64,000 bases of DNA, from assembly GCF_025971925.1 (NCBI RefSeq), contig NZ_JAPDHV010000004.1, positions 186,001-250,000 of the forward strand, given 5' to 3'. Positions 597-9,760 of the stretch are shown here, piece after piece (positions within the stretch are counted from its first letter, which is position 1; each line of letters starts with the position of its first letter). A program made the position numbers and the translations under genes. The notes under the pieces are model-generated. The model was not told the DNA's origin and did no database searches. It was given only the letters and a program-made list of their open reading frames with translations. This DNA comes from Chryseobacterium oryctis (GTDB taxonomy: Bacteria; Bacteroidota; Bacteroidia; Flavobacteriales; Weeksellaceae).

Positions 597-1166
597 TTAA
601 TTAATAGATTCTTCAAGTATTGATTTTAAATTGTTTAATGTTTTTTGCTGAGCTTTTTTAATAAATTGTCGTCCTATTAAATATGAAGGTAAATTGATGG
701 GGTATTTTGCAAAGGCAGAAAATGTACAGGTATAAAGTGTTTTATTTGTTTCAGTTTCAAGAAAGTTGTTTTGTAGCTTACAGATACCGGGCATTGGTTT
801 TATCAGGCGTAGTTCAATATCAATATTATTATCATCCATACTTTTAATTTCCTGCTCACCTTTTCCTGTATTTTTGTTTTTGTCTTCATTATTGCTTTCC
901 CATTTAAGAATAGCTCCAACAGTTCCGTCTGTACCGCTTATTTCTGGCTTTAGGGTATCATCTGATTTCAACCATTCACTGTACTTCAATTGGTTTTGTA
1001 ATATACTTACATATTCAAAAACATCTTTTTGGGGTCTGTTTATAGTTTGGGAAACCGTGACTGAATAGTGTTTGGGTATAAATAATGCTAAAATTAGTAA
1101 AGTAACAACTATGCAAACTAAAATTATCAATATTGTTATAATTATATCCATTTTTATATTTTTCAA
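597..1166 (-). CDS. SRPBCC-family (START-like) protein with N-terminal membrane anchor
   Basis: 189 residues. Residues 8-30 form one transmembrane helix. The rest matches the polyketide-cyclase/SRPBCC fold in layout: a first strand (YSVTVSQTINRPQKDVFEYV), a region around W65 (KYSEWLKSDD), a glycine-rich stretch with G-T-V-G-A-I-L-K-W, and a long C-terminal helix from about residue 163 (IGRQFIKKAQQKTLNNLKSI). Such proteins bind hydrophobic ligands in a deep pocket. The ligand is unknown. It probably faces the periplasm or the cytoplasmic membrane surface. It follows a decayed attC-like element, so it may be an old cassette, but no cassette boundary is visible on its 3' side. Confidence 0.65.
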   Translation of the reverse strand: MKNIKMDIIITILIILVCIVVTLLILALFIPKHYSVTVSQTINRPQKDVFEYVSILQNQLKYSEWLKSDDTLKPEISGTDGTVGAILKWESNNEDKNKNTGKGEQEIKSMDDNNIDIELRLIKPMPGICKLQNNFLETETNKTLYTCTFSAFAKYPINLPSYLIGRQFIKKAQQKTLNNLKSILEESIN

Positions 1167-1255
1167 TAGAACTAAATTACAAAAAAATAGAATCTAAGCA
1201 CATGTTTGTTATATAGGTTAATTTTTTTTAGACATTTTGACAATACATTACTAAT
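1160..1255 (-). repeat. Half-length decayed attC-like element (distal array remnant)
   Basis: The stretch 1163-1200 resembles the conserved central part of the intact 194-bp elements (TTTTTCAATGGAACTAAATTA; here TTTTCAATAGAACTAAATTAC). 1228-1250 resembles their outer arm (ATTTTGCCAATACAATGTTA; here ATTTTGACAATACATTACTA). The other half is missing because the SRPBCC gene starts at 1166. The core GTT is not intact, so this copy is probably inactive. It shows that the array once reached this far. Confidence 0.5.
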
Positions 1256-1778
1256 TAAGACTTTTTTCTTTTTTATAAAGATTGGTTTTTTCGAGCCCAG
1301 AATTATTTATTCGCACTGTAGGAGAATCAAGTTTCCAGTTGGGAAGATTGTTAAATAGGATATTTCCCAATTTTTGAATTCCGGGAGTTTGTTTATCATT
1401 AAACTCATAATGTTTAGTTTCTGTGATGATTTCTAAACCACTATGCTTTTCTCGATGTAAAACAGGTAAACTGAAGGAATTAATTTCTATTATTTCAGTC
1501 CATTTTATGAATTCAGACGTATTATCTTTTGTTATAGTAAAACCATCTTTTTTATATTCAAAAATACCATCAAAATTTTCTAAGATGTCAGTTTCTTTCT
1601 CGATCGACTCATAAGTTTCTTTGTCACTTGGATAACGAATTTTGGCAACTGAAAAAATAATGATTACAAAGCAAGAAAAAATGATTAAAAATGAGGTTCC
1701 TTTATTATCAAAAACAGGGTAGTTATATAAAGTCCCGATTAGAACTAAAGAACTTAAGATTAAGATTTTCTTTTCCAC
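1251..1778 (-). CDS. Membrane-anchored protein with PH-like C-terminal half, unknown function
   Basis: 175 residues with two N-terminal hydrophobic helices (about 4-20 and 28-46). A soluble part follows, with alternating strands: FEYKKDGFTITKDNTSEFIKWTEI, then short strands ending in HYEFNDKQ. This layout resembles small bacterial proteins in which a PH-like or YcxB-like fold follows two membrane helices, but the match is by pattern only. The stop codon sits at the edge of a decayed attC-like element, as in the intact cassettes, so this may be an old cassette gene. Confidence 0.5.
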   Translation of the reverse strand: MEKKILILSSLVLIGTLYNYPVFDNKGTSFLIIFSCFVIIIFSVAKIRYPSDKETYESIEKETDILENFDGIFEYKKDGFTITKDNTSEFIKWTEIIEINSFSLPVLHREKHSGLEIITETKHYEFNDKQTPGIQKLGNILFNNLPNWKLDSPTVRINNSGLEKTNLYKKEKSLN

Positions 1779-1860
1779 AATATTTGTAAATTGTTCCAGT
1801 AAATTGTTTGAGTATTCTTGAAAAAGATAGCAGTTTAGTTGTAAATTTTAACTAAATAGT

Positions 1861-2316
1861 TTACCAATAATTCTTCATTAAATCTTCTACCCAATCTGGT
1901 TGAGTTATATTATTCTTAACTTGAAATTCTTTAAATACAGGTTTTATGTCAAGAATTGGTGTTCCATCAATTGCATCAAGATATTTTACTGTAATTTTTC
2001 TTTCTTCCCATTTTAATAGTTCGACGGTAGTTAAGCCGATTTGGTTGGGTCTGTCTTTTTTTCTTTGCCCGAAAATACCAACATTCGGGTAATTTTTATT
2101 TCCTCGTGGATGTCCGGAGAAAACGATGTTATTAGATTTAACCTGATCAAAATAAAAGATTATTTCTAAATGTGAGAAATCTGATATATTGTTAAAAGCT
2201 TCTGTCGGAATATTATCTGCTAATTCTATGTCGGAAATTATTTGATACCAATTATCATCAATTGGTTCTTTTCTTGAATTTTTTACAAATCCTATTGGTT
2301 CTAATTCTATTTTCAT
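1861..2316 (-). CDS. trmO: tRNA (N6-threonylcarbamoyladenosine37-N6)-methyltransferase TrmO
   Basis: TrmO (YaeB/UPF0066 family) methylates N6 of t6A37 in tRNAs using S-adenosylmethionine. The family motifs are clear: IGFVKNSRKEP near the N-terminus, the SAM-site segment GHPRGNKNYPNVGIFGQRKK followed by D-R-P-N-Q-I-G-L-T-T-V-E-L-L, and the closing DAIDGTPILDIKPV. I start it at 2316 (MKIELEPIGF); the longer reading frame to 2400 would run through the GGCTAAC core site at 2337. The TAA stop lies inside a GTTTACC core-like site (1859-1865). Both ends share GTTA/TACCATAATT-type sequence, so trmO appears to sit in a cassette. It lacks the C-terminal extension of E. coli TrmO. Confidence 0.8.
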   Translation of the reverse strand: MKIELEPIGFVKNSRKEPIDDNWYQIISDIELADNIPTEAFNNISDFSHLEIIFYFDQVKSNNIVFSGHPRGNKNYPNVGIFGQRKKDRPNQIGLTTVELLKWEERKITVKYLDAIDGTPILDIKPVFKEFQVKNNITQPDWVEDLMKNYW

Positions 2317-2336
2317 ATACTTGTCTGTGTAATTAT

Positions 2337-2536
2337 GGCTAACGAAAAAAAACATTGTAAAACTATTATAGACTTGATTGGAGCAAAACTTCAAGCCCAA
2401 CCGATTCTACCAATATTTTTCAATAAAACTAAATTAATAAAAAATAGAAAATGGGACACTATATCATTCAGATATATACCTATAGTTTCATATTTTTGAG
2501 ATTATATTTTTTCAATACAATTTCACAAAACATTTT
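2337..2536 (-). repeat. Decayed full-length attC-like element
   Basis: About 200 bp, starting with an intact GGCTAACG core (2337-2344) and ending near a degenerate core (TTTCACA). The centre (CCAATATTTTTCAATAAAAC, about 2419-2438) matches the central part of the intact elements, and the end TTCAATACAATTT matches their outer arm. The GCGAAGTGCGGG arm is lost, so the fold is weakened. It separates trmO from the WG-repeat gene. Confidence 0.65.
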
Positions 2537-3142
2537 TTAAGGGTTTTTCCAGCCTATTTCCTTTTGTATTTGTTCAAAAGTATAATCTCCGAATTTTAGA
2601 ATTTCTCCTTTTTTATTAATGTATCCGTGTTTTTTACATACAATAGAGTAATGTTCGCAATCGCCATGATTTTTTTGGAGTGTTTCCCATGGTATTTTTT
2701 CACATTTTTCGGCAATCATTGCTTTTCCGTTATGAAATGAACTTGCCATCTCAAATTGTGGTTGGATTACAATATTTCCTTTTTTATCCCCAAAACCAAT
2801 TTTATCTTTCGAATCAACAATTCTGATTCTATTTTCGATAATATCGTCTGGGCTTGGTGTTCCGATTTCAGTATTGTAAACCTTAAAAAGTTTTTTTTCA
2901 TTAATGTCAATTGCAGTCCAGCCTTCTTCGCCCTGAATAGAAAAAATTGAAAAATATCCTAAAGTTTCAGGCTGATAGTTTAAGCTATATGAACTATCTA
3001 ATTTTTTGATTACATTTCTATTTCGGTCGGCAATATATGATATTCTATAATTATCATTTAGATATATTATTTGAAATTTTTTTTGTGAATTACAAGATAA
3101 AACTATAAAGAATAGTAAAATAAGTTTTATTAATTTCATCAT
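2537..3142 (-). CDS. WG-repeat-like lipoprotein, unknown function
   Basis: 201 residues from the M-M-K-L-I-K start at 3142. Residues 3-18 are a signal peptide ending in the lipobox FIVLSC, so Cys17/18 is the likely lipidation site. The C-terminal part contains WG-repeat-like signatures (KDKIGFGDKKGNIVIQPQFE, then HGYINKKGEIL) that form short beta-hairpin repeats. A longer frame to 3268 was rejected: its first 42 residues come from an attC half-site and an acetyltransferase remnant. Sequence flanking both ends (ATCAAAAAACATT and TCACAAAACATT) is similar, as expected for cassette termini. Function unknown; it is probably exposed in the periplasm or at the outer membrane. Confidence 0.7.
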   Translation of the reverse strand: MMKLIKLILLFFIVLSCNSQKKFQIIYLNDNYRISYIADRNRNVIKKLDSSYSLNYQPETLGYFSIFSIQGEEGWTAIDINEKKLFKVYNTEIGTPSPDDIIENRIRIVDSKDKIGFGDKKGNIVIQPQFEMASSFHNGKAMIAEKCEKIPWETLQKNHGDCEHYSIVCKKHGYINKKGEILKFGDYTFEQIQKEIGWKNP

Positions 3143-3164
3143 ATTTTTTTTAATGTTTTTTGAT

Positions 3165-3221
3165 GTATTCTTCAAAGAAGGAGAGGTTTTTAAGCCATAT
3201 TTTGCCGATATAATGTTAGGC
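3165..3221 (-). repeat. attC-like half-site with consensus GTTAGGC core
   Basis: On the minus strand GCCTAAC (3221-3215) is followed by ATTATATCGGCAAAATATGG, matching one outer arm of the intact elements. The core fits the integron consensus RYYYAAC exactly. The rest of the element is missing, and the WG gene begins 23 bases further on. Probably the scar of a deletion. Confidence 0.55.
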
Positions 3222-3229
3222 GATGTATT

Positions 3230-3425
3230 TTTATTTTCTTTTGTCAGTTGATAAAATTGCATATCCATAATTGTCGGCCCAGCCTGATTTTAACGGTAAC
3301 AATTTTCTTGTATGAGCTTCTCTAAACATTCCAACTTTTTCTAAAACATTTATTGAACCAATATTATTGATGGCACAACCTGCTTCAATTCGATGAAGAT
3401 TTAGATTTTCAAATCCGAAATTAAT
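3230..3425 (-). pseudogene. GNAT acetyltransferase remnant (C-terminal third, frameshifted)
   Basis: The minus strand encodes INFGFENLNLHRIEAGCAIN, then NIGSINVLEKVGMFREAHTR, then after a one-base shift SGWADNYGYAILSTDKRK. This is the C-terminal third of a RimJ/RimL-type GNAT acetyltransferase. It has no start and no N-terminal two-thirds. The frame breaks at T4 (3288-3291; AAAA on the coding strand, where three would keep the frame). It lies exactly where the attC element of the upstream cassette should be, so it looks like a cassette that lost its front half in a deletion. Confidence 0.75.
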
Positions 3426-3447
3426 TATTTTTTAGACTTTCAGCTTT

Positions 3448-4461
3448 CTATTCCCACGTCTTTGTTTTTAACTGTTCAGCAATAGTTTTTATGTCGTCTG
3501 GAACTTTATCTAATTCATTCTCAAGATTAAAATATCGTACTCTAAAAATTCCACCTGGACTTGTCTTTTTAAAGTCTGTGTCCGTGAAATTTGATAGTAA
3601 AAAAAATCTGTGGTCAGTCTCAACTCCCCAACCTTTGTCATCAGATTCTTTTATCGCATTTATTAGTTTCTGTTCTTGCTCTTTTGTAACTGGATATTTT
3701 GAGTTTTTAATTATTAAACCTATTTTCTCATTCCAATCTGCTTCAATAATATTCTCAACAAGTCCGATGTGTCTAACTGACTTCCATTTGTAAATACCTA
3801 AATACTTAAAATCACTATATCCGCGTGAAGCCAAGTCAAAGTAGAATTGATGCTTTACATTTAAATCATATGATTGTCCACAAGCCATAGCTCTTAACAC
3901 GTTATTGTTTCTTGACATAAGTCCCATACCCAAACAATAACTCTCAAAATGTTCATTAAGTCTTTGTAAGTAATGCTCATATTGATAGTTGTTTGCAAGT
4001 TCCTTTAATTGGTCAACTAAGTCTTGGTATGTTATTGAATGAAAGTTTACTTTTCCAAGGTTTTTATTATCGTTAAGAATTGTCTTAATTTTTTCTATTT
4101 CACTCTCTGGATATCTTGTTGAACTAAGATGTATCAGTAATTTATATTCACTTGGGTCAAAACTTTGTGCATACTTCACGAGTTTATTTATCCATTCTAG
4201 TCCGTGCAGTTTTGTTTCAATGATAATTTTTGATGCTTTGATTTGAATATGTCCATCTATTATTCCGTTTCCACGATTTCCGATTTGCTGTCTAAAAATG
4301 GGAATCACTTCGTATTGGTCAGAATCTTCTGTTAAGCCCTTTATATATTCTTCGTAATATTTTGGATTTATTTCATACAAATTTGAAAGCATCAATAATA
4401 CATTATTTGTTACCGTATTCTCGCCTTGTGAGTAATGTTGAAATTGGTTTAATACTGCCAT
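3448..4461 (-). CDS. Putative PD-(D/E)XK nuclease-fold protein (cassette gene)
   Basis: 337 residues. Near the N-terminus GENTVTNNVLLMLSNLY resembles the leading helix of PDDEXK-family nucleases. The segment GNGIIDGHIQIKASKIIIET ending E-T-K carries the D-x(n)-ExK pattern: Asp about 69, Glu about 81, Lys about 83. A Q follows in LVKYAQSFD, a position often conserved in such folds. The C-terminal half matches nothing I recognise. Nucleases of this type are common in phage defence, so defence is an inference, not shown. The gene is a cassette: its 5' end sits 36 bases inside a GTTAGCGGTCAGCTT terminus, and a degenerate copy of that terminus lies at its 3' end near 3432-3446. Confidence 0.55.
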   Translation of the reverse strand: MAVLNQFQHYSQGENTVTNNVLLMLSNLYEINPKYYEEYIKGLTEDSDQYEVIPIFRQQIGNRGNGIIDGHIQIKASKIIIETKLHGLEWINKLVKYAQSFDPSEYKLLIHLSSTRYPESEIEKIKTILNDNKNLGKVNFHSITYQDLVDQLKELANNYQYEHYLQRLNEHFESYCLGMGLMSRNNNVLRAMACGQSYDLNVKHQFYFDLASRGYSDFKYLGIYKWKSVRHIGLVENIIEADWNEKIGLIIKNSKYPVTKEQEQKLINAIKESDDKGWGVETDHRFFLLSNFTDTDFKKTSPGGIFRVRYFNLENELDKVPDDIKTIAEQLKTKTWE

Positions 4462-4496
4462 TTTATTCTTTGTTTGTTACGTATGGTTAAGCTGAC

Positions 4497-4690
4497 CGCT
4501 AACGACCCACGTATTGGCGATAGTGGCGGATTAGAAAGCCTAAACTTGTAATCGTGCACTAACCTAAGCAACAGCCTTTTATTATTTTCTAAATTTATGA
4601 AAAAAGGAAATATAAAAGGCTGTTGCGAAAAAAAAGGAGAAACTTTCAATTTCTCCCTTAAACCGCCATTTCGCAAATACGATGTTAGCT
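4497..4690 (-). repeat. attC-like element 5 (194 bp)
   Basis: Bounded by CGCTAAC (4497-4503) and GTTAGCT (4684-4690). The outer arms pair imperfectly (CGTATTGGCGA with TTCGCAAATACGA). The centre differs from the other copies but has a perfect 15-bp hairpin: GCAACAGCCTTTTAT pairs with ATAAAAGGCTGTTGC. Its length equals the other copies despite the different sequence, so length or fold, not sequence, seems to be kept. Confidence 0.8.
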
Positions 4691-4791
4691 GTAGCTATAA
4701 TTTCGATTTTATAAGATACTAAAAAGTAATTTATAAAGTATACAATCTTGTGTTACGTTAATTAATTTTGCTATTTTTTTAAGAAGAAAAA

Positions 4792-5265
4792 ATGGTTATA
4801 TTTTCAACCGTTATTTTTATAACATTTTTTATGGATAAGAAAATAGCAATAGCGCTTAATAGCGTTGATTTAATTAAATATGCTTTATTTAAAGAATATT
4901 ATTTACCAAAAGAGTTTGATATTAATTTAACTCAAGAAAGAATATTGATGAAGGTTAAAAATTCTATCAATATGTCTATGGTAGCTATTTCTCGCTCCAT
5001 TGGTTTGGAAAAAGGTCCTTTTTCAAAAACCATAGATAGATTAGAAGAACTTGATTTGGTTAAAAGAAATCGGTCTTCTGACGATAAAAGATTAGTTTAT
5101 TTATCTCTCACACCAAGAGGAGAAAAATTGGCTAACGAAATTGAAACTAAGATGGAAACCCACTTTTCTGAAATCATAGGTAGATTATCTGAGGACGAAC
5201 AGAATGATTTTTTTAAAGCATTATCTATTCTCAACAACACAGCAAACATTTTAATAAATAAATAA
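4792..5265 (+). CDS. MarR-family transcriptional regulator (reversed cassette, first gene)
   Basis: 157 residues with the winged-helix layout of MarR proteins: a helix MSMVAISRSIGLEKGPFSKT (recognition region about 70-90), then LEELDLVKRNRSSDDKRLVY with the typical D-D-K-R wing, and a C-terminal dimerisation helix. It probably represses its own operon and binds a small ligand. It is transcribed against all other cassettes and must have its own promoter; a TAATTTTG -7-like box lies at 4763-4770. Start 4792 has a purine-rich leader (AAGAAGAAAA). The alternative ATG at 4831 gives a more typical MarR N-terminus (MDKKIAIALN) but has a T-rich leader. Confidence 0.85.
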   Translation: MVIFSTVIFITFFMDKKIAIALNSVDLIKYALFKEYYLPKEFDINLTQERILMKVKNSINMSMVAISRSIGLEKGPFSKTIDRLEELDLVKRNRSSDDKRLVYLSLTPRGEKLANEIETKMETHFSEIIGRLSEDEQNDFFKALSILNNTANILINK

Positions 5266-5267
5266 TA

Positions 5268-5744
5268 ATGAATAGAATGCCTACAACTTTAAAGGAACAT
5301 TTAATATTTACGTTCCTAATGGTTTTTTTTATGTGTTTCGTAATGATCAATTATAATGTAATATTGCACAATGGATTTTCTGTAGATAGTATAAAAAAAG
5401 CATTGTTAATGTTTCCTTTAACATTTGTTGTTGCTTTTATATGCGAATGGTTTATTGTTGGAAGAGTCGCAATGATGTTAGTTCCTAAATTTTTAAAGGA
5501 GAAGGATCCGATATTTAAGAAAATTCTTATAACGGCTTTATTTTTTGTGACAGGTATGGCAACTTTAATGTCGTTATATGGAGCTCTAATTACAGATGGT
5601 TATACATCAAATTTATTCTCTACTTGGATAAAAAATATATCTTTAAATTTTCCAATGGCTTATTTTCTTCAAGTCGCAATTGCAGGGCCTTTTATACGAT
5701 TTATTTTTAATAAAGTATGTTCAGTAAAAGTAGAAAGTAAATAA
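5268..5744 (+). CDS. DUF2798-family membrane protein
   Basis: 158 residues with four predicted membrane helices (about 12-30, 45-62, 85-105, 128-148). The layout of two repeated pairs, each with a polar residue inside the membrane (FMCFVMINYN and a later AYFLQVAIAG), fits the DUF2798 family. The function of that family is unknown. It starts three bases after the MarR stop, so the two form an operon within one cassette, and the regulator probably controls this membrane protein. Confidence 0.75.
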   Translation: MNRMPTTLKEHLIFTFLMVFFMCFVMINYNVILHNGFSVDSIKKALLMFPLTFVVAFICEWFIVGRVAMMLVPKFLKEKDPIFKKILITALFFVTGMATLMSLYGALITDGYTSNLFSTWIKNISLNFPMAYFLQVAIAGPFIRFIFNKVCSVKVESK

Positions 5745-5793
5745 TATTAGGTACATAAGAAAATTTATTGCGGAACATTTCACTTATAGTTGC

Positions 5794-5987
5794 AGTTAAT
5801 GAAAAAAGGCTTTGCGAAGTGCGGGCTAAAAGGGAACTTTAGTTCAATTTTAGACCAATTGTAGCCAATATTTTTTCAATGGAACTAAGTTAATTAAAAA
5901 TGTGGAATTGGAAAATATTGGCGGCTAAAAATGTAGAGTAGTTCAACTTAGAGTTTAACCCCGCATTTTGCCAATACAATGTTATGT
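5794..5987 (-). repeat. attC-like element 4 (194 bp)
   Basis: Bounded by AGTTAAT (5794-5800) and GTTATGT (5981-5987). The arm GCTTTGCGAAGTGCGGG faces CCCGCATTTTGCCAATAC. The centre has GCCAATATTTT pairing with AAAATATTGGC. At the recombination-side core the minus strand reads ATTAACT rather than GTTAACT, so the G of the G/TT cut site is changed and this junction may be hard to recombine. Confidence 0.85.
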
Positions 5988-5995
5988 GTAGTATT

Positions 5996-6586
5996 TTAAT
6001 TCGGATTGAACTGAATATTGAAATTCTTTAAATAATCCTCTATTGGTTCCATTCCCATTTCTTTTCTTCTTTCGTTCACAGTTTCAGGATTTTCTAATTT
6101 ATACAATTTACCATTCTCTATTTGTGAACCATATATTTGGGGTTTTCCTTCGTCCATTAAAATCCTATCTTTCATCAATGCGTATTGTTGTTTAGATAAG
6201 TCTCCATTTTCAACCGCTTTCTCTATTTGTGGAAAATACTTTTTTTTGATTTTTTTAGTACTATGTTGCAGTCCCAACCAGATTACATCCATTTGTTTTT
6301 GACCCACCTCCTTTAATGTTGGCATACCACACTTTTCAATTATGCTAATCACTAATTCTTGATTTCTATGATCTTCTTTAGCGTATTTGATGGGTTCATT
6401 TGATTTTCTAATCCTTTGGTCACTTTCTAAAACTTCGCTCAAGATTTGAAGTTTTTTACTGCAATCGACTTCAATAATATCTACTGAACCTACATAAACA
6501 AATTTATCCCTATTCATATAAAGGAATATTGATACTATTAAAACAAGAGCGGTTAATATGCTAAATAATATTTTTTTTATTTTCAT
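5996..6586 (-). CDS. DUF6624-like protein with signal anchor (cassette gene)
   Basis: 196 residues. Residues 5-23 form one hydrophobic anchor (ILFSILTALVLIVSIFLYM). The soluble part has the signature I associate with DUF6624: an early DQRIRKSN, then IIEKCGMPTLKEVG, AIWLGLQHS-type text (here VIWLGLQHST), then LPQI-type text (FPQIEKAVENGDLSKQQYA), D-R-I-L and a late KPQIYGSQI. Function is unknown. As a cassette it is bounded by the 15-bp inverted termini GTTATGTGTARTATT (5981-5995 and 6601-6615). Confidence 0.6.
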   Translation of the reverse strand: MKIKKILFSILTALVLIVSIFLYMNRDKFVYVGSVDIIEVDCSKKLQILSEVLESDQRIRKSNEPIKYAKEDHRNQELVISIIEKCGMPTLKEVGQKQMDVIWLGLQHSTKKIKKKYFPQIEKAVENGDLSKQQYALMKDRILMDEGKPQIYGSQIENGKLYKLENPETVNERRKEMGMEPIEDYLKNFNIQFNPN

Positions 6587-6608
6587 TACTATTTTTGGTT
6601 AATATTAC

Positions 6609-6802
6609 ACATAACGAGCCGCGGCTTGGCGAAGTGTGGGCTTAATTTGAACGAAAGTTCAAGTTCAGACCAATTGTAGCCGATATTTTTTCCATGAAAC
6701 GAACTTACAAAAATCAGTGGAATGGAAAAATAACGGCGGCTGAAAAAGTAGAGTAGTTCAACTTTATACTTCCTCCCGCATTTTGCCAATACAATGTTAT
6801 CT
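6609..6802 (-). repeat. attC-like element 3 (194 bp)
   Basis: Bounded by ACATAAC (6609-6615) and GTTATCT (6796-6802). Outer arms GGCTTGGCGAAGTGTGGG and CCCGCATTTTGCCAATAC pair. The inner arms are GCCGATATTTTTTCCAT and ATGGAAAAATAACGGC. It keeps the central motif in altered form (GAAACGAACTTACAAAAATC). Confidence 0.85.
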
Positions 6803-6811
6803 GCAGTTTTT

Positions 6812-7448
6812 CTATTTAATAAATGGAAATTTTTTTTCAAGATTTTTGTACTCGGTCATAACCTGATATTTATTTTCATATATTTTCATATCCTTTGTAA
6901 ATATTAAATCTGTCACACCCTTTTCAGTAATCATATTTTTACTTGTTATTTGATAAAAATATTCAACTTCATACATACATAAATTTAAACTATCTTTTTT
7001 GACTAATATTTGTTCATAATGTTTTATTTGTTTTTTAATAAAGTCAATAGAATCCCTCAGAACATTAGATTTTGCTTCATTTTCTTTTACAGACTTATAT
7101 TCTGACTTATTTACGTAGTCTTCATGCATTTGCGAACCAAATTCATCAGTTCCATATTTTAATTCGTTCAAATCTTTCGGCGATTTTGATTGTGATAATA
7201 AATGGTTTTTATATCTATATAATTGACATATATATATATATATACAATTCATCTTTATCAGACAATGTGTCAATTTTTAATATTCTCAATGAGTCTAAGG
7301 ATTTAAAATCTGCATCTTTTTTGAACTCTTCGCTAAAATAAATTTTTGCAGTTTTTAGAAATTCTTTTCTTTGTAATTTTTGTTCGTCTTTACATCCAAA
7401 TAAAATTGGTAAAATAAACACTAAAATTAGCTTGTAAATATTTTTCAT
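6812..7448 (-). pseudogene. Lipoprotein interrupted at a (TA)n tract (cassette gene, possibly phase-variable)
   Basis: The first frame (7448-7215) starts MKNIYKLILVFILPILFGC, a lipoprotein signal with Cys19, and continues to DTLSDKDELYIYIYMSII, where it stops. The rest lies in the next frame (about 7245-6812), from QLYRYKNHLLSQSKSPKD to KKFPFIK. The break is at a tract of 8.5 AT units (7228-7244). Adding one TA unit, or losing two, would join the frames into about 211 residues. The C-terminal part is helical (RDSIDFIKKQIKHYEQILVK). Function unknown. Slippage at the tract could switch the protein on and off; a dead gene or a read error is also possible. Confidence 0.65.
7228..7244. repeat. Dinucleotide (AT)8.5 tract inside a coding region
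   Basis: An uninterrupted run ATATATATATATATATA within the lipoprotein cassette gene. Such tracts slip during replication; here gain of one unit or loss of two would restore the frame. Confidence 0.9.
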
Positions 7449-7471
7449 GGATGCAGTCTTTAAAAAATTGC

Positions 7472-7665
7472 AGATAACGGAAAAAGTATTGGCGAAGTGC
7501 GGGCTTTCGAAGAACTAAATGTTCAAGAACGACCAAACATAGCCAATATTTTTTCAATGGAACTAAATTAAACAAAAATGTGGAATTGAAAAATAATGGC
7601 GGATTAAAAAGTGTAATTTTTCAACTTATTACAAAACCCCGCATTTTGTCAATACAATGTTAGCT
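7472..7665 (-). repeat. attC-like element 2 (194 bp)
   Basis: Bounded by AGATAAC (7472-7478) and GTTAGCT (7659-7665). Outer arms: AGTATTGGCGAAGTGCGGG with CCCCGCATTTTGTCAATAC. Inner arms: GCCAATATTTTTTCAAT with ATTGAAAAATAATGGC. The loop between the inner arms holds GGAACTAAATTAAACAAAAA, shared with elements 3 and 4. Confidence 0.88.
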
Positions 7666-8112
7666 GATGGCGTTACTGTAAAGATTATAAATTATTTTAA
7701 ATTTTTCGACGAAGTTAATATCATAACTATTATTTTGAGATTCTAACCATTTAGTTTTTAGATAAATATCATCTATTAATTCAGTTTTTTTTGATATTCC
7801 ATTGTCTAAAAACTCCAAATATTGAATAAGAATTTCTGAATTTCTTTGTTCGGATAGAAGAAAAGATTTTGCAAAAATAATTCCTGTATCATAATTAGAA
7901 GATTTGTTGTCCTTTATTTCTAAAATTCCATCAACTAAAATAGTTCTTTGTAAATCACTCCATTCATCTAATTGATTATTTAAATTTTCCCAATCCTCAT
8001 ATTTTAGTTTTTGAAGAGGGTAAATTAAATCATTTATTAATCCAAGTTCAAGATATTCTTGCTCCTGTTCAAGAGATTCTATAATTTTTTTTATTTTCTG
8101 AATTTTTTGCAT
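7660..8112 (-). CDS. Unknown 150-residue soluble protein (cassette gene)
   Basis: A mostly helical, acidic protein with no signal peptide and no membrane segment. Features: a first coiled helix (QKIKKIIESLEQEQEYLELG), a W-rich centre (YEDWENLNNQLDEWSDLQ), then paired helices (ILIQYLEFLDNGISKKTELI). The size, acidity and helical repeats resemble immunity or antitoxin proteins, but this is only an impression. The ATG is 26 bases inside the cassette start. The TAA stop lies within the GTTAGCT core (7659-7665), so the gene fills its cassette almost exactly. Confidence 0.6.
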   Translation of the reverse strand: MQKIQKIKKIIESLEQEQEYLELGLINDLIYPLQKLKYEDWENLNNQLDEWSDLQRTILVDGILEIKDNKSSNYDTGIIFAKSFLLSEQRNSEILIQYLEFLDNGISKKTELIDDIYLKTKWLESQNNSYDINFVEKFKIIYNLYSNAIS

Positions 8113-8131
8113 AATGCTGGTAAACGCTTTC

Positions 8132-8323
8132 AGCTAACGAAAAAGTATTTGCGAAGTGCGGGCTGAATTTAACTGCAAGTTCAATTCAGACTGAGCGAAG
8201 CAAAATGCTTTTTCAGATTGTTAAATTACAAATAAAATCAAGATGAAAAGCATTTTTGCGGATAAATGATTGATGCTTTTCAACTTTGGTTTAAATCCGC
8301 ATTTTGCAAATACACTGTTATCT
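8132..8323 (-). repeat. attC-like element 1 (192 bp, nearest the integrase)
   Basis: Bounded by AGCTAAC (8132-8138) and GTTATCT (8317-8323). The outer arms are the best paired of the set: TATTTGCGAAGTGCGG with CCGCATTTTGCAAATA, followed by AAGTTCAA with TTCAACTTT. The inner arms GCAAAATGCTTTTTCAGAT and ATGAAAAGCATTTTTGC replace the GCCAATATT arms of other copies, so the inner stem varies while pairing is kept. Confidence 0.88.
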
Positions 8324-8782
8324 GCTGTTCTTTTTTAGTTTTATTGTAGGTTTAAATTCAATTTCTTCACAAGCATAACATCCTTCTTTTCTGAAAGATT
8401 TATAATCGTCAAATTCTGTTTTATAATTTTCGTAACCTGCTTTTGAAACTTTAAACTCTGCAAAACACCATGCAATTGGTAAATCAAAAGGTGTATGAAA
8501 CCAATCAATACGAGATTTTTGGTCAAGAAAAAAGTAGCCGTTTTTGTCAGTCAATACTGTTTGAAACTCATATTCAGAACTTTCTTCATAACCCCATTTT
8601 TCGTTCTTCCAATTTTTTTCCTCAATTCTTGAAACATACGCATCTTTAATTGGAATTCCATTTTCATCAATAACTTTTCCTGAAATTTTCGGTAAATAAA
8701 TTACTTTTTGTGGACGAATAAAAAGTAGAAGAATCAAAATTCCTAAAATTGTGAAAATTACTTTTATGACACGATTTTTCAT
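8318..8782 (-). CDS. Carboxypeptidase-regulatory-like fold protein, membrane-anchored (first cassette gene)
   Basis: 154 residues from MKNRVIKVIF at 8782. Residues 5-22 form a membrane anchor. The rest matches the carboxypeptidase regulatory-like (Ig-type beta-sandwich) fold: ISGKVIDENGIPIKDAYVSR, a later TVLTDKNGYFFLDQ, and FKVSKAGYENYKTEF. A C-Y-A-C pair near the C-terminus is unusual and may be redox-active or bind a metal. A longer frame to 8827 was rejected because it crosses the cassette boundary into the attI-like region. The start is only 9 bases from the GTTATCT core, and the TAA stop is inside the opposite core (8317-8323). It would be the most strongly expressed cassette if transcription comes from the attI side. 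Confidence 0.7.
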   Translation of the reverse strand: MKNRVIKVIFTILGILILLLFIRPQKVIYLPKISGKVIDENGIPIKDAYVSRIEEKNWKNEKWGYEESSEYEFQTVLTDKNGYFFLDQKSRIDWFHTPFDLPIAWCFAEFKVSKAGYENYKTEFDDYKSFRKEGCYACEEIEFKPTIKLKKNSR

Positions 8783-8824
8783 AGAATAGCAGATAACGTC
8801 TAAATATACGCATTGCGCTAATAT

Positions 8825-8832
8825 CAAATATA
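8825..8832 (-). promoter_or_regulatory. Candidate cassette promoter -7 box
   Basis: The minus strand reads TATATTTG, matching the Bacteroidota -7 consensus TAnnTTTG, about 43 bases upstream of the first cassette ATG. No clear TTTG is seen at -33. By position it would serve as the cassette promoter (Pc). Confidence 0.4.
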
Positions 8833-8871
8833 CATTATTGCGTCTATTTTTCTTAGTAATACGTAAAGTTG

Positions 8872-8904
8872 TTGTAAATCAGTGGATTATTTTTTATATA
8901 TTTG
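8872..8904 (+). promoter_or_regulatory. Candidate integrase promoter
   Basis: TTG at 8872-8874, a 22-base spacer, then TATATTTG at 8897-8904. This fits the Bacteroidota sigma-A consensus (TTG at -33, TAnnTTTG at -7) with slightly long spacing. The integrase ATG is at 8928. Confidence 0.5.
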
Positions 8905-8927
8905 GATAAACGCATAAATGATTTAGA

Positions 8928-9760
8928 ATGGATAATAAATATTTAGAAAAGTTTATTGATATACTTTTACTTCAAAGATATTCTGATAAAAGTATAAGAA
9001 CTTATAAGTTCCATATAAGTTTTTTTCTAAAAGTCTCGGTTAAATATTCTCCTGAAGAAATTACACAAAAACAACTTGAAGATTTTATTTTTTGGTTGTA
9101 GATAAAAAGAAAGTTGGGCAATCTTATCAAAAAGCAATGATTGCTTCTCTTACAAAGTTTTATAAAGAAGTTTTTCAAAGAAATATTAATCTTAAACATC
9201 TTTACCCTACAAGAAAAGAATATAAATTACCAAGATTCCTGACAAAACAAGAGGTTAAAAAACTATTAGAATCCATAGAAAATTTAAAACATAAGGCGAT
9301 TCTTACGACAATTTATTCATGTGGGTTGCGTCTAAGTGAAGTACTGGAGCTGAAGTTGTCAGATATTAAAACGGAAGGAAAGATAATATTGATAAGACAA
9401 TCTAAAGGAAATAAAGATAGAGTTGTTGCATTATCTCCAAGACTACTTGATTTATTAAGAGATTATTATATCATGTATCAACCTCAAAATTATTTATTTG
9501 AAGGTAAATTTAATGAAAAATATTCTGAAAGAAGTGTTCAACAGGTTCTTAAAGACTCTTTGATAAAAGCTAATATTACTTCTCCGGCCACTGTTCATAC
9601 ATTAAGACATTCATATGCAACACATCTATTAGAAAATGGAACGGATATAAGAATTATTAAAGAACTTTTAGGACATAACAATATCAAAACAACTGAAATA
9701 TATACCCATATAACTGATATTAGCAAGAGTAATATCAAAAGTCCACTGGATTTTTTGTAA
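8928..9760 (+). CDS. Tyrosine recombinase of the cassette array (integron-type integrase), one frame break
   Basis: The first frame starts ATG at 8928 (MDNKYLEKFIDILLLQRYSD) and holds the SAM-like N-terminal domain. It stops at 9099-9101, just after a T6 run (9088-9093). A seventh T would join it to the open frame 9092-9760 and give 277 residues. All catalytic residues are present; in the joined protein: R135 (SCGLR), K160/K163 (KGNKDR), H214 and R217 (HTLRH), H240 (LLGH), Y249 (EIYTH). The end NIKSPLDFL resembles the end of IntI1. Only about 48 residues separate KGNKDR from HTLRH, so the extra helical insertion of canonical IntI is absent. It is divergent from the cassettes, as IntI usually is. 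Without the frame fix, a TTG start at 9092 would give a protein lacking the N-terminal domain. Confidence 0.8.

Follow-up and report, generated by a model that had tools for sequence, protein, structure and literature searches.

It is highly probable that the 64-kb window, i.e. the whole stretch of Chryseobacterium oryctis DNA that was analysed, contains the cassette array of a Bacteroidia chromosomal integron, with an integrase that lacks the I2 insert and attC hairpins free of extrahelical bases. The system probably constitutes an integron of a second kind, which may form a lineage of its own.

Five attC-like sites are found between the small genes of the window, all on the minus strand and each 184-186 nt from core to core: 8136-8319 (site 1, E 6.4e-7), 7476-7661 (site 2, E 1.2e-11), 6613-6798 (site 3, E 7.4e-9), 5798-5983 (site 4, E 1.3e-5) and 4501-4686 (site 5, E 1.2e-10). 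The E values refer to covariance model R1, trained on 45 elements from other genomes only; run over the 64 kb at E up to 1, it returned five matches, exactly these sites, at E 1.2e-11 to 1.3e-5. All five were also recovered by a two-ended PWM scan, which gave no match at window positions 12001-64000 and two weak ones in 372 kb of simulated sequence. Together with short flanks, the sites correspond to the five palindromic elements of 192-194 bp with core sites described in the sequence-only reading, and confirm them. The decayed copies that it placed beyond the array are also present: one at 2373-2456 (minus strand, beside a TrmO-like gene) was detected by nhmmer at E 4.6e-4, and partial blast matches were obtained at 1159-1188 and 2410-2445. 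In a further 77 kb of control loci model R1 gave no match at E up to 1, and its best match at six loci of the phylum with canonical IntI was unconvincing (E 0.099). Rfam contained no family matching the element; the two plastid matches returned, near 12.9 kb, were sub-threshold.

Among 122 distinct elements, 90 measure 123-127 nt, 20 measure 184-188 nt and 12 have other lengths; the arrays of relatives reach 11 sites, mostly of 123-127 nt each. The great length noted in the sequence-only reading is therefore correct for the window and is not a trait of the system as a whole. The architecture is that of attC, with R''/R' cores, L''/L' pairing, an unpaired central spacer and a variable terminal structure. 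The pairing is further reflected in covariation: both sides have changed in 13 of 19 pairs (shuffled mean 9.5, with 2 of 500 shuffles as high), and the covariation score is 0.382, compared with 0.093 for shuffled alignments (reached in 0 of 500) and at most 0.060 for slid ones. In canonical attC sites the R''-L'' arm is described as having two or three extrahelical bases (PMC2727003), which are lacking here, as 117 of the 122 sites show no bulged base on this arm; a bulged base does occur on the L'-R' arm in 33 of 122. Since a de novo attC search at the six canonical IntI loci of the phylum revealed no clear arrays, two class 1 cassettes were used as control, and the same alignment found 2 and 3 bulges in their canonical attC sites. 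Instead, the sites have two conserved A.C mismatches on the top strand, which become G.T pairs on the bottom strand. Upon folding, the bottom strand is the more stable in 90 of 120 arm pairs (p 1e-9), by a small margin (mean 1.2 kcal/mol) that is absent or reversed in the other 30.

The integrase gene, at 8928-9760 on the plus strand, is transcribed divergently from the array. The divergent tyrosine recombinase had been recognised from the letters, and its frameshift had been overlooked: the gene is split into ORFs 8928-9101 and 9092-9760, so that this copy is probably dead. In relatives from the genus (L032-L042, 71-76% identity) the frame is intact, with 276-280 aa, in 10 of 11 cases, the exception being G115 (L041). 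The earlier statement that the recombinase is not a canonical IntI proved accurate, as the additional domain specific to IntI is absent. The insert of about 41 residues is missing from all 42 family members, the K-to-H spacing is 64-65 in all 42 versus 106 in 16 of 16 IntI, and the catalytic R, K, H, R, H and Y are all present in 42/42. With the IntI model TIGR02249 (cut-off 265), four intact members score 190-209 bits, below the cut-off, while three XerD proteins reach 142-154 bits and three XerC fall under the reporting threshold. The same four members also remain below the cut-offs of the XerD model (179-198 bits vs 329.6) and the XerC model (173-186 bits vs 335.15). The general NCBI model NF040815, 'site-specific tyrosine recombinase/integron integrase', is matched by two of the four and decides nothing, because three of six Xer proteins reach it as well.

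In the phylogenetic tree, the family and IntI form one clade (support 99/99) apart from the nine other recombinases used, and the family lies outside the part holding eight Xer rows. This grouping, the SP(L/F)D tail common to both and IntI-model scores above those of Xer proteins would fit a canonical integron whose IntI lost the insert secondarily, a system that shares its ancestry with known integrons and whose sites have drifted. We consider such a loss unlikely, though worth weighing: IntI itself is a clade at 100/100 with no insert-less row inside it, not one of the 42 members has the insert, and on their R''-L'' arm the sites, too, are devoid of extrahelical bases. The members without insert come together as a clade in 28% of 200 bootstrap trees, and both a clade and a grade below IntI are compatible with the data. 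An AlphaFold model of middling quality (pLDDT 80.9, pTM 0.59), used for fold neighbours only, matches XerA, XerH and IntI4, the nearest solved structures being XerA-type.

A predicted attI is located at 8795-8865 on the minus strand, its crossover core GTT at 8797-8795 lying about 130 nt 5' of the integrase start codon; the core is preceded by a genus-conserved block, which in the window reads GCGCAATGCGTATATTTAGAC before GTT. The entry core agrees with R'' of the first detected cassette in at least 6 of 8 positions at 13 of 18 divergent-type loci with elements and at 9 of 13 downstream-type loci, and falls short of this at 5 and 4 loci, respectively. The attI-to-gene distance is nearly fixed in two different gene orders. 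As far as the sequence can tell, an attI is thus present beside the integrase, where the first cassette starts.

Within each gene order the array keeps to one strand and one side, with four exceptions: at 24 type A loci, 58 of 58 matches are on the minus strand and 54 of 58 upstream, and at 56 type B loci, 31 of 31 are on the plus strand and downstream. For type B, sites were seen in 14 of the 56 loci, and in 33 of the 56 the contig stops no more than 2 kb 3' of the gene; among 20 genus stretches around the integrase, 4 contain no site. Adjacency alone does not prove that a neighbouring integrase acts on the sites. Across 395 Bacteroidia genomes, sites occur in 263, the insert-less integrase in 199 and canonical IntI, which is common in the phylum outside this class, in 1. 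Sites and integrase are both present in 179 genomes, sites only in 84, the integrase only in 20 and neither in 112 (p 2.6e-24); within the genus, sites are found in 23 of 23 genomes with integrase versus 60 of 125 without (Fisher p 3.7e-7). At the thresholds used, 84 of 263 site-bearing genomes of the class and 60 of 83 of the genus thus have no integrase. The sequence-only reading had suggested a distinct class of cassette system in Bacteroidota, and this is supported, because the recombinase is not IntI by its defining domain and canonical IntI was found in only that single genome of the 395; the corrections are that long sites represent one length class and that the integrase copy of the window is disrupted.

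The many genomes with sites and no insert-less integrase also raise the question of whether host XerC/XerD or another integrase mobilises the cassettes in trans, the adjoining recombinase being incidental; the genome itself encodes an XerD that exceeds the cut-off and another Xer protein that fits the XerC model best without reaching the XerC cut-off. This is quite improbable, taking into account the nearly fixed distance between entry core and gene in both gene orders, the constant placement of the arrays apart from the four exceptions and the strong co-occurrence of sites and integrase.

The cassettes, each including its attC and all on the minus strand, follow one another from the predicted attI. 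Cassette 1 (8138-8796; ORF 8318-8782, no assigned function) shows 7/8 identity between the attI core and its R''. The start agrees with R'' in 6/6 positions in cassette 2 (7478-8137; ORF 7660-8112, no assigned function), cassette 3 (6615-7477) and cassette 4 (5800-6614; ORF 5996-6586, DUF6624), and in 4/6 in cassette 5 (4503-5799). In 81 adjacent pairs, the 6 bases after the entry core were compared with the complement of the cassette's own distal R''. The mean agreement is 4.86/6, perfect in 47 of 81 cassettes and imperfect in 34, versus 3.11/6 and 5 of 81 for a site's own two ends, while 2000 shuffles give a mean of 2.80 (SD 0.12, maximum 3.25). Judged from these borders, a cassette is a unit with a 3' attC and crossover at G^TT. 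Furthermore, two cassettes of the window are found border to border in other species, with borders at cores: the body of cassette 3 matches the first cassette of G041 at 92.2% identity over 683/683 nt, and that of cassette 4 matches a cassette of the same-genus genome G011 at 94.0% over 634/635 nt. In four relatives, cassettes have been gained and lost at a shared, fixed site. The idea that the elements are REP or MITE-like palindromes spread by another process, unrelated to recombination of the intervening genes, could draw on their occurrence at several other places in the genome, but its probability is practically negligible and it was rejected, since it predicts an end-to-end match within each copy, whereas an end is instead matched by the distal end of the gene unit next to it (47/81 vs 5/81 perfect), and whole gene units are common to species with borders at cores. 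The sequence-only reading had regarded genome-wide copies without turnover as evidence against a cassette system; copies do exist elsewhere in the genome, mostly as additional clusters, but turnover is evident in relatives.

Collectively, the cassette units, the predicted attI, the attC-type pairing and the turnover bear out the integron logic that had been proposed for the array. We infer that the adjacent integrase recombines these sites, in which case it would pair attI, in double-stranded form, with the bottom strand of an attC in its folded state. This strand would be favoured because, where the top strand has its two conserved A.C mismatches, it has G.T wobbles, giving a continuous L stem beside an asymmetric unpaired spacer; stem and spacer would replace the extrahelical bases read by the I2 helix. 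Since the integrase is frameshifted in this genome, the cassettes here are probably locked in place, barring the action of another integrase in trans.

The type of sedentary chromosomal integrons with IntI is the Vibrio cholerae superintegron, and the length range of VCRs covers most sites of the present system. Both kinds of system have an integrase beside attI, small genes arrayed with an attC (R''/L''/L'/R') behind each of them, cassettes delimited as units at G^TT, and turnover; they differ in that the integrase described here has no additional domain and the sites carry A.C / G.T positions instead of R''-L'' bulges. In the Treponema denticola integron the integrase runs in the same direction as the array, as in the downstream, co-directional type B arrays, whose integrase, in contrast, lacks the IntI-specific domain. 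XerA, XerC and XerD are similar in size and in domain make-up without the insert, and the nearest structural neighbours are XerA-type. However, the family is distinct from the XerD and the XerC-like protein that this genome encodes, falls outside the Xer part of the tree, and is accompanied by a predicted attI and cassettes. The CTXphi hairpin site of XerCD likewise combines a stem without extrahelical bases and an enzyme without I2 (PMC4792948), whereas here a dedicated integrase and many cassettes are present.

No paper on this cassette system was found in the open-licence PMC literature, the scope of the search. Published descriptions state that IntI needs the additional domain for recombination and that this domain is what integron surveys look for (PMC9668308, PMC2426708). 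IntegronFinder 2.0 is reported with one added complete integron in Salinibacter ruber, which it assigns to Bacteroidetes (PMC9024848), and a review records integrons at the level of the entire phylum (PMC8618304). Provided that the system works as proposed, integron sites are present in about two thirds of the Bacteroidia genomes sampled, and a large cassette pool has so far gone uncounted. The origin of IntI from Xer-like enzymes is presented as an open question in PMC4792948, for which an enzyme without I2 acting on sites without extrahelical bases would provide living test material. In our estimation the chances are about even that there are two integron lineages, the second of which, dominant in Bacteroidia, never had I2 and is missed by tools requiring the IntI domain; its integrase and bulge-free, wobble-polarised attC would then have preserved the state between Xer and IntI, and the system would be among the most widespread for cassette exchange in bacteria.

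Regarding the remaining gene content, the two ORFs of cassette 3 (7215-7448 and 6812-7273) are probably one broken lipoprotein gene. Cassette 5 contains a MarR family gene (about 4831-5265) and a DUF2798 gene (5268-5744), both on the plus strand and thus opposite to the cassette. PADLOC, applied to ten ORFs of the window, returned nothing beyond weak matches for the MarR-family protein (E 3.6e-4 or worse, CARF3/Csa3 models). The gene at 3448-4461 on the minus strand, for which no distal site was found, likely belongs to a sixth cassette.

Five palindromic elements lie among small genes at 4.5-8.9 kb of the window, which comes from a draft genome of 3.5 Mb, and a tyrosine recombinase gene (8928..9760, plus strand) is divergent from them, in agreement with the sequence-only reading. 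When a covariance model is built from 45 elements, all of other genomes, and run on the whole 64 kb, it recovers exactly these same five. Because the training elements were gathered by a PWM whose seed came partly from the window, this match shows family likeness; the end, pair and border tests are independent of the training. The proposal that the sites are unusually long holds for the window, where the PWM scan gives 184-186 nt core to core, but not for the family: the 122 distinct elements collected over all loci comprise 90 of 123-127 nt, 20 of 184-188 nt and 12 of other lengths. In the genus, sequence of up to 20 kb surrounding each of 20 further recombinase places was scanned (G026, G099 and G105 left out, the window being the remaining one). 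At least one element is present in 16 of these 20 at scan threshold 17, the longest rows having 10 and 11 elements (L063 and L072), while L060, L065, L066 and L073 hold none at this threshold; the genome of L073 (G079) has sites on other contigs. Further clusters in the window's own genome, distant from its recombinase (L075-L080, on contigs C11, C21, C23, C18 and C19; that on C11 is about 16 kb long), resemble CALINs in lying away from the integrase gene. In the window, a decayed site adjoins a TrmO-like tRNA methyltransferase gene (1861-2400), which is of housekeeping type and may have been taken up as a cassette, and cassette 5, counted from the recombinase outward, carries two genes opposing the array direction, MarR family and DUF2798 (4831-5744, plus strand).

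Excision of an integron cassette occurs at G^TT, and a site's own R' and R'' come together only in the cassette circle. For the bases that follow the entry core, the expected match is therefore the complement of the R'' with which that cassette ends, rather than the opposite end of the palindrome. This was examined in 81 adjacent pairs (sites scoring at least 30; same-sequence repeats and gaps above 4.5 kb dropped; L085-L087, L092, L094 and L096-L098, mostly second copies of genus loci, left out). The bases following the entry core match the R'' of their own cassette at a mean of 4.86/6, perfectly in 47 of the 81 pairs; for the two ends of one palindrome the mean is 3.11/6, with five perfect pairs, and 2000 shuffles gave a mean of 2.80 (SD 0.12, maximum 3.25). 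Within the window, the scores of the four internal cassettes are 6, 6, 6 and 4. From a static repeat family one would expect the reverse, with a palindrome's own ends matching best.

Gene order here differs among related genomes; one and the same order in all close relatives would have told against the cassette reading. Four genomes, G097, G093, G057 and G041, have both flanks in common at 73-96% identity. Between G097 and G093 most cassettes are common at 99-100%; the first cassette body differs, and G093 has an additional segment of about 1 kb ending at a site core. Apart from site-sized matches, G057 has just the last cassette in common with these two, the common distal part starting at base 8171 of the G093 stretch (site end 8172) and at 8427, a site end, in G057. 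G041 matches the other three only over site-sized segments, with no cassette body in common. Cassettes also recur across loci: window cassette 3 is the first cassette of G041 (683/683 nt, 92.2%, with recombinase regions at 71%), window cassette 4 is found in G011 (634/635 nt, 94.0%), a 1033-nt cassette is common to G115 and G011 at 99.8%, and two further pairs have whole cassettes in common at 80-81%. The body at window 6796-7478 corresponds to 4008-4671 of the G041 locus at 92%, and its site is 186 nt in the window and of the 124-nt class in G041, so that body and site can part; the breakpoint of such re-assortment can lie at the R'' core, and this might be explained by conversion between adjacent sites. 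The reverse case is seen between L055 and L056, whose first cassette bodies differ and whose sites are near-identical.

To look for a predicted attI, 20 loci, 18 of them with elements, were probed with the R'' that closes the first detected cassette. The best match, taken as the entry core, lies upstream of the start codon, at 124-130 nt in nine loci and at 203-208 nt in five; at L063 it lies at 304 nt, a distance taken from a truncated frame. It agrees with the first detected R'' in at least 6/8 positions in 13 of the 18 loci, and was not confirmed in the other five: L085 (5/8), L087 (4), L090, L094 (4/8 at that place) and L097. At the genus loci a block like CGCAATGCGTATATTTGGGT precedes the core; L100-L102 are without it. 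Where the array lies downstream of the gene, the core stands 93-106 nt downstream of the stop codon in 13/13 listed sequences, read by eye, preceded by an inverted repeat and TATAARTAA-like bases, and agrees with the first detected R'' in at least 6/8 positions in 9 of 13.

The recombinase is not a canonical IntI, as had been suspected. In the window its gene is split by a frameshift, and the larger piece scores 190 bits with the XerA-type model NF040815 (titled 'site-specific tyrosine recombinase/integron integrase'), 181 with IntI and 165 with XerD, all below the NCBIfam cut-offs. Four intact members reach 205-225 bits with NF040815, two exceeding its cut-off of 220, a level also reached by three of six Xer proteins scored; they give 190-209 with IntI (cut-off 265) and 179-198 with XerD (cut-off 329.6), and the IntI model gives XerD proteins from the phylum 142-154 bits. 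Alignment to IntI4 falls into two stretches. Among 67 aligned sequences, the catalytic lysine and first catalytic histidine are 64-65 residues apart in 42/42 members of the group without the IntI-specific insert (I2), 106 apart in 16/16 IntI and 68-78 apart in nine others; none of the 42 insert-less members lacks any of the six catalytic residues. IntI and this group form a single clade (99/99), within which IntI alone is a clade (100/100) and bootstrap trees recover the insert-less group as monophyletic in only 28% of cases. That this group is sister to IntI is likely rather than proven, given a small comparison set and the meeting of long branches. In G115 an in-frame stop (L063, about 10930) falls within a few codons of the window's frameshift place (9092-9101), either by coincidence or at a hotspot.

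The sites differ from attC in a corresponding manner. Their L stem and second stem covary, with changes on both sides in 13/19 pairs, and by arm alignment the R''-L'' arm is without a bulged base in 117 of 122 elements, at least one bulge being present on the other arm in 33; in two class 1 attC sites used as control, the bulges, two and three of them, all lie on the R''-L'' arm. Three oppositions are conserved, two A.C (36/45 and 39/45), which become wobbles on the bottom strand, and one T.G (36/45). With DNA parameters, bottom arms are stabler in 90/120 elements, by a mean of 1.2 kcal/mol, and the full bottom strand in 82/120 (two elements containing N left out). PMC4792948 describes I2 as accommodating extrahelical bases and XerCD as lacking I2; the joint absence of insert and extrahelical bases is consistent with co-evolution.

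Judged from sequence, the system is integron-like by every cassette, attI and turnover test made here. It is not classed as a canonical integron, because the enzyme falls short of the IntI definition and the sites are without the extrahelical bases of attC; the suggestion of a distinct class of cassette system is thus upheld in that it is a variant of the integron rather than a canonical one, and possibly a second integron lineage. By analogy with known integrons, the integrase would most likely bring a double-stranded attI together with attC folded from its bottom strand, a single strand would be exchanged at G^TT, and replication would then probably resolve the junction.

Identity was used to sort the best 80 of 483 relatives, all at loci in named genomes, into two gene orders, with 24 loci of type A (array divergent from the integrase) and 56 others, type B (array downstream and co-directional). 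The 22 type B rows in the tree form a clade (100/97), many B loci lying outside the tree. At E <=1e-5, sites are present in 20/24 type A loci; all 58 share the minus strand, and 54 precede the gene. The other four, of which L098 has three and L096 one, lie 3' of the integrase, a possible rearrangement. In type B, 14/56 loci have sites, and each of the 31 is downstream of the gene on the plus strand. Mirror matches on the opposite strand of strong sites are weaker (E >1e-3). Type B contigs end within 2 kb of the gene on the 3' side in 33/56 loci, against 8/56 on the 5' side, and 9 of the 17 contigs above 50 kb end so on the 3' side, as expected if repeat arrays break assemblies. Among the site and integrase matches listed for 395 Bacteroidia genomes and paired by hand (same contig, within 26 kb), 22 of 24 pairs are same-strand downstream, one is same-strand upstream and one divergent. 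Type B frames are often longer, 334-386 aa with automatic start codons (L128, L134, L137, L138, L142, L152, L159, L163), the additional length being an N-terminal extension.

A close homologue of the recombinase (E <=1e-60) occurs at 24 places in 23 of 148 genomes of the genus, the window's included. Sites are present in 23/23 of these genomes (at least 214 sites) versus 60 of the 125 others (at least 197), with up to 22 scored per genome (p 3.7e-7, kinship ignored). A search beyond the genus, as proposed earlier for Bacteroidota, covered one class. In 395 Bacteroidia genomes of 196 genera, the covariance model detects sites in 263 genomes and 140 genera (E <=1e-4; up to 8 scored per genome) and the insert-less integrase occurs in 199 genomes and 115 genera (E <=1e-60); both are present in 179 genomes, sites only in 84, integrase only in 20 and neither in 112 (Fisher p 2.6e-24, kinship ignored). 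Canonical IntI exceeds its cut-off in one of these 395 genomes; across 395 genomes sampled from the entire GTDB phylum it does so in 105, and one Bacteroidia genome is among the 107 matching genomes listed. Bacteroidota-type integrases were also met in MAGs labelled Rhizobium and Azoarcus (L127, which has sites too, and L109), probably by misbinning or transfer, and a plasmid of Chryseobacterium oryzae (L166) carries an integrase relative near IS91 transposases.
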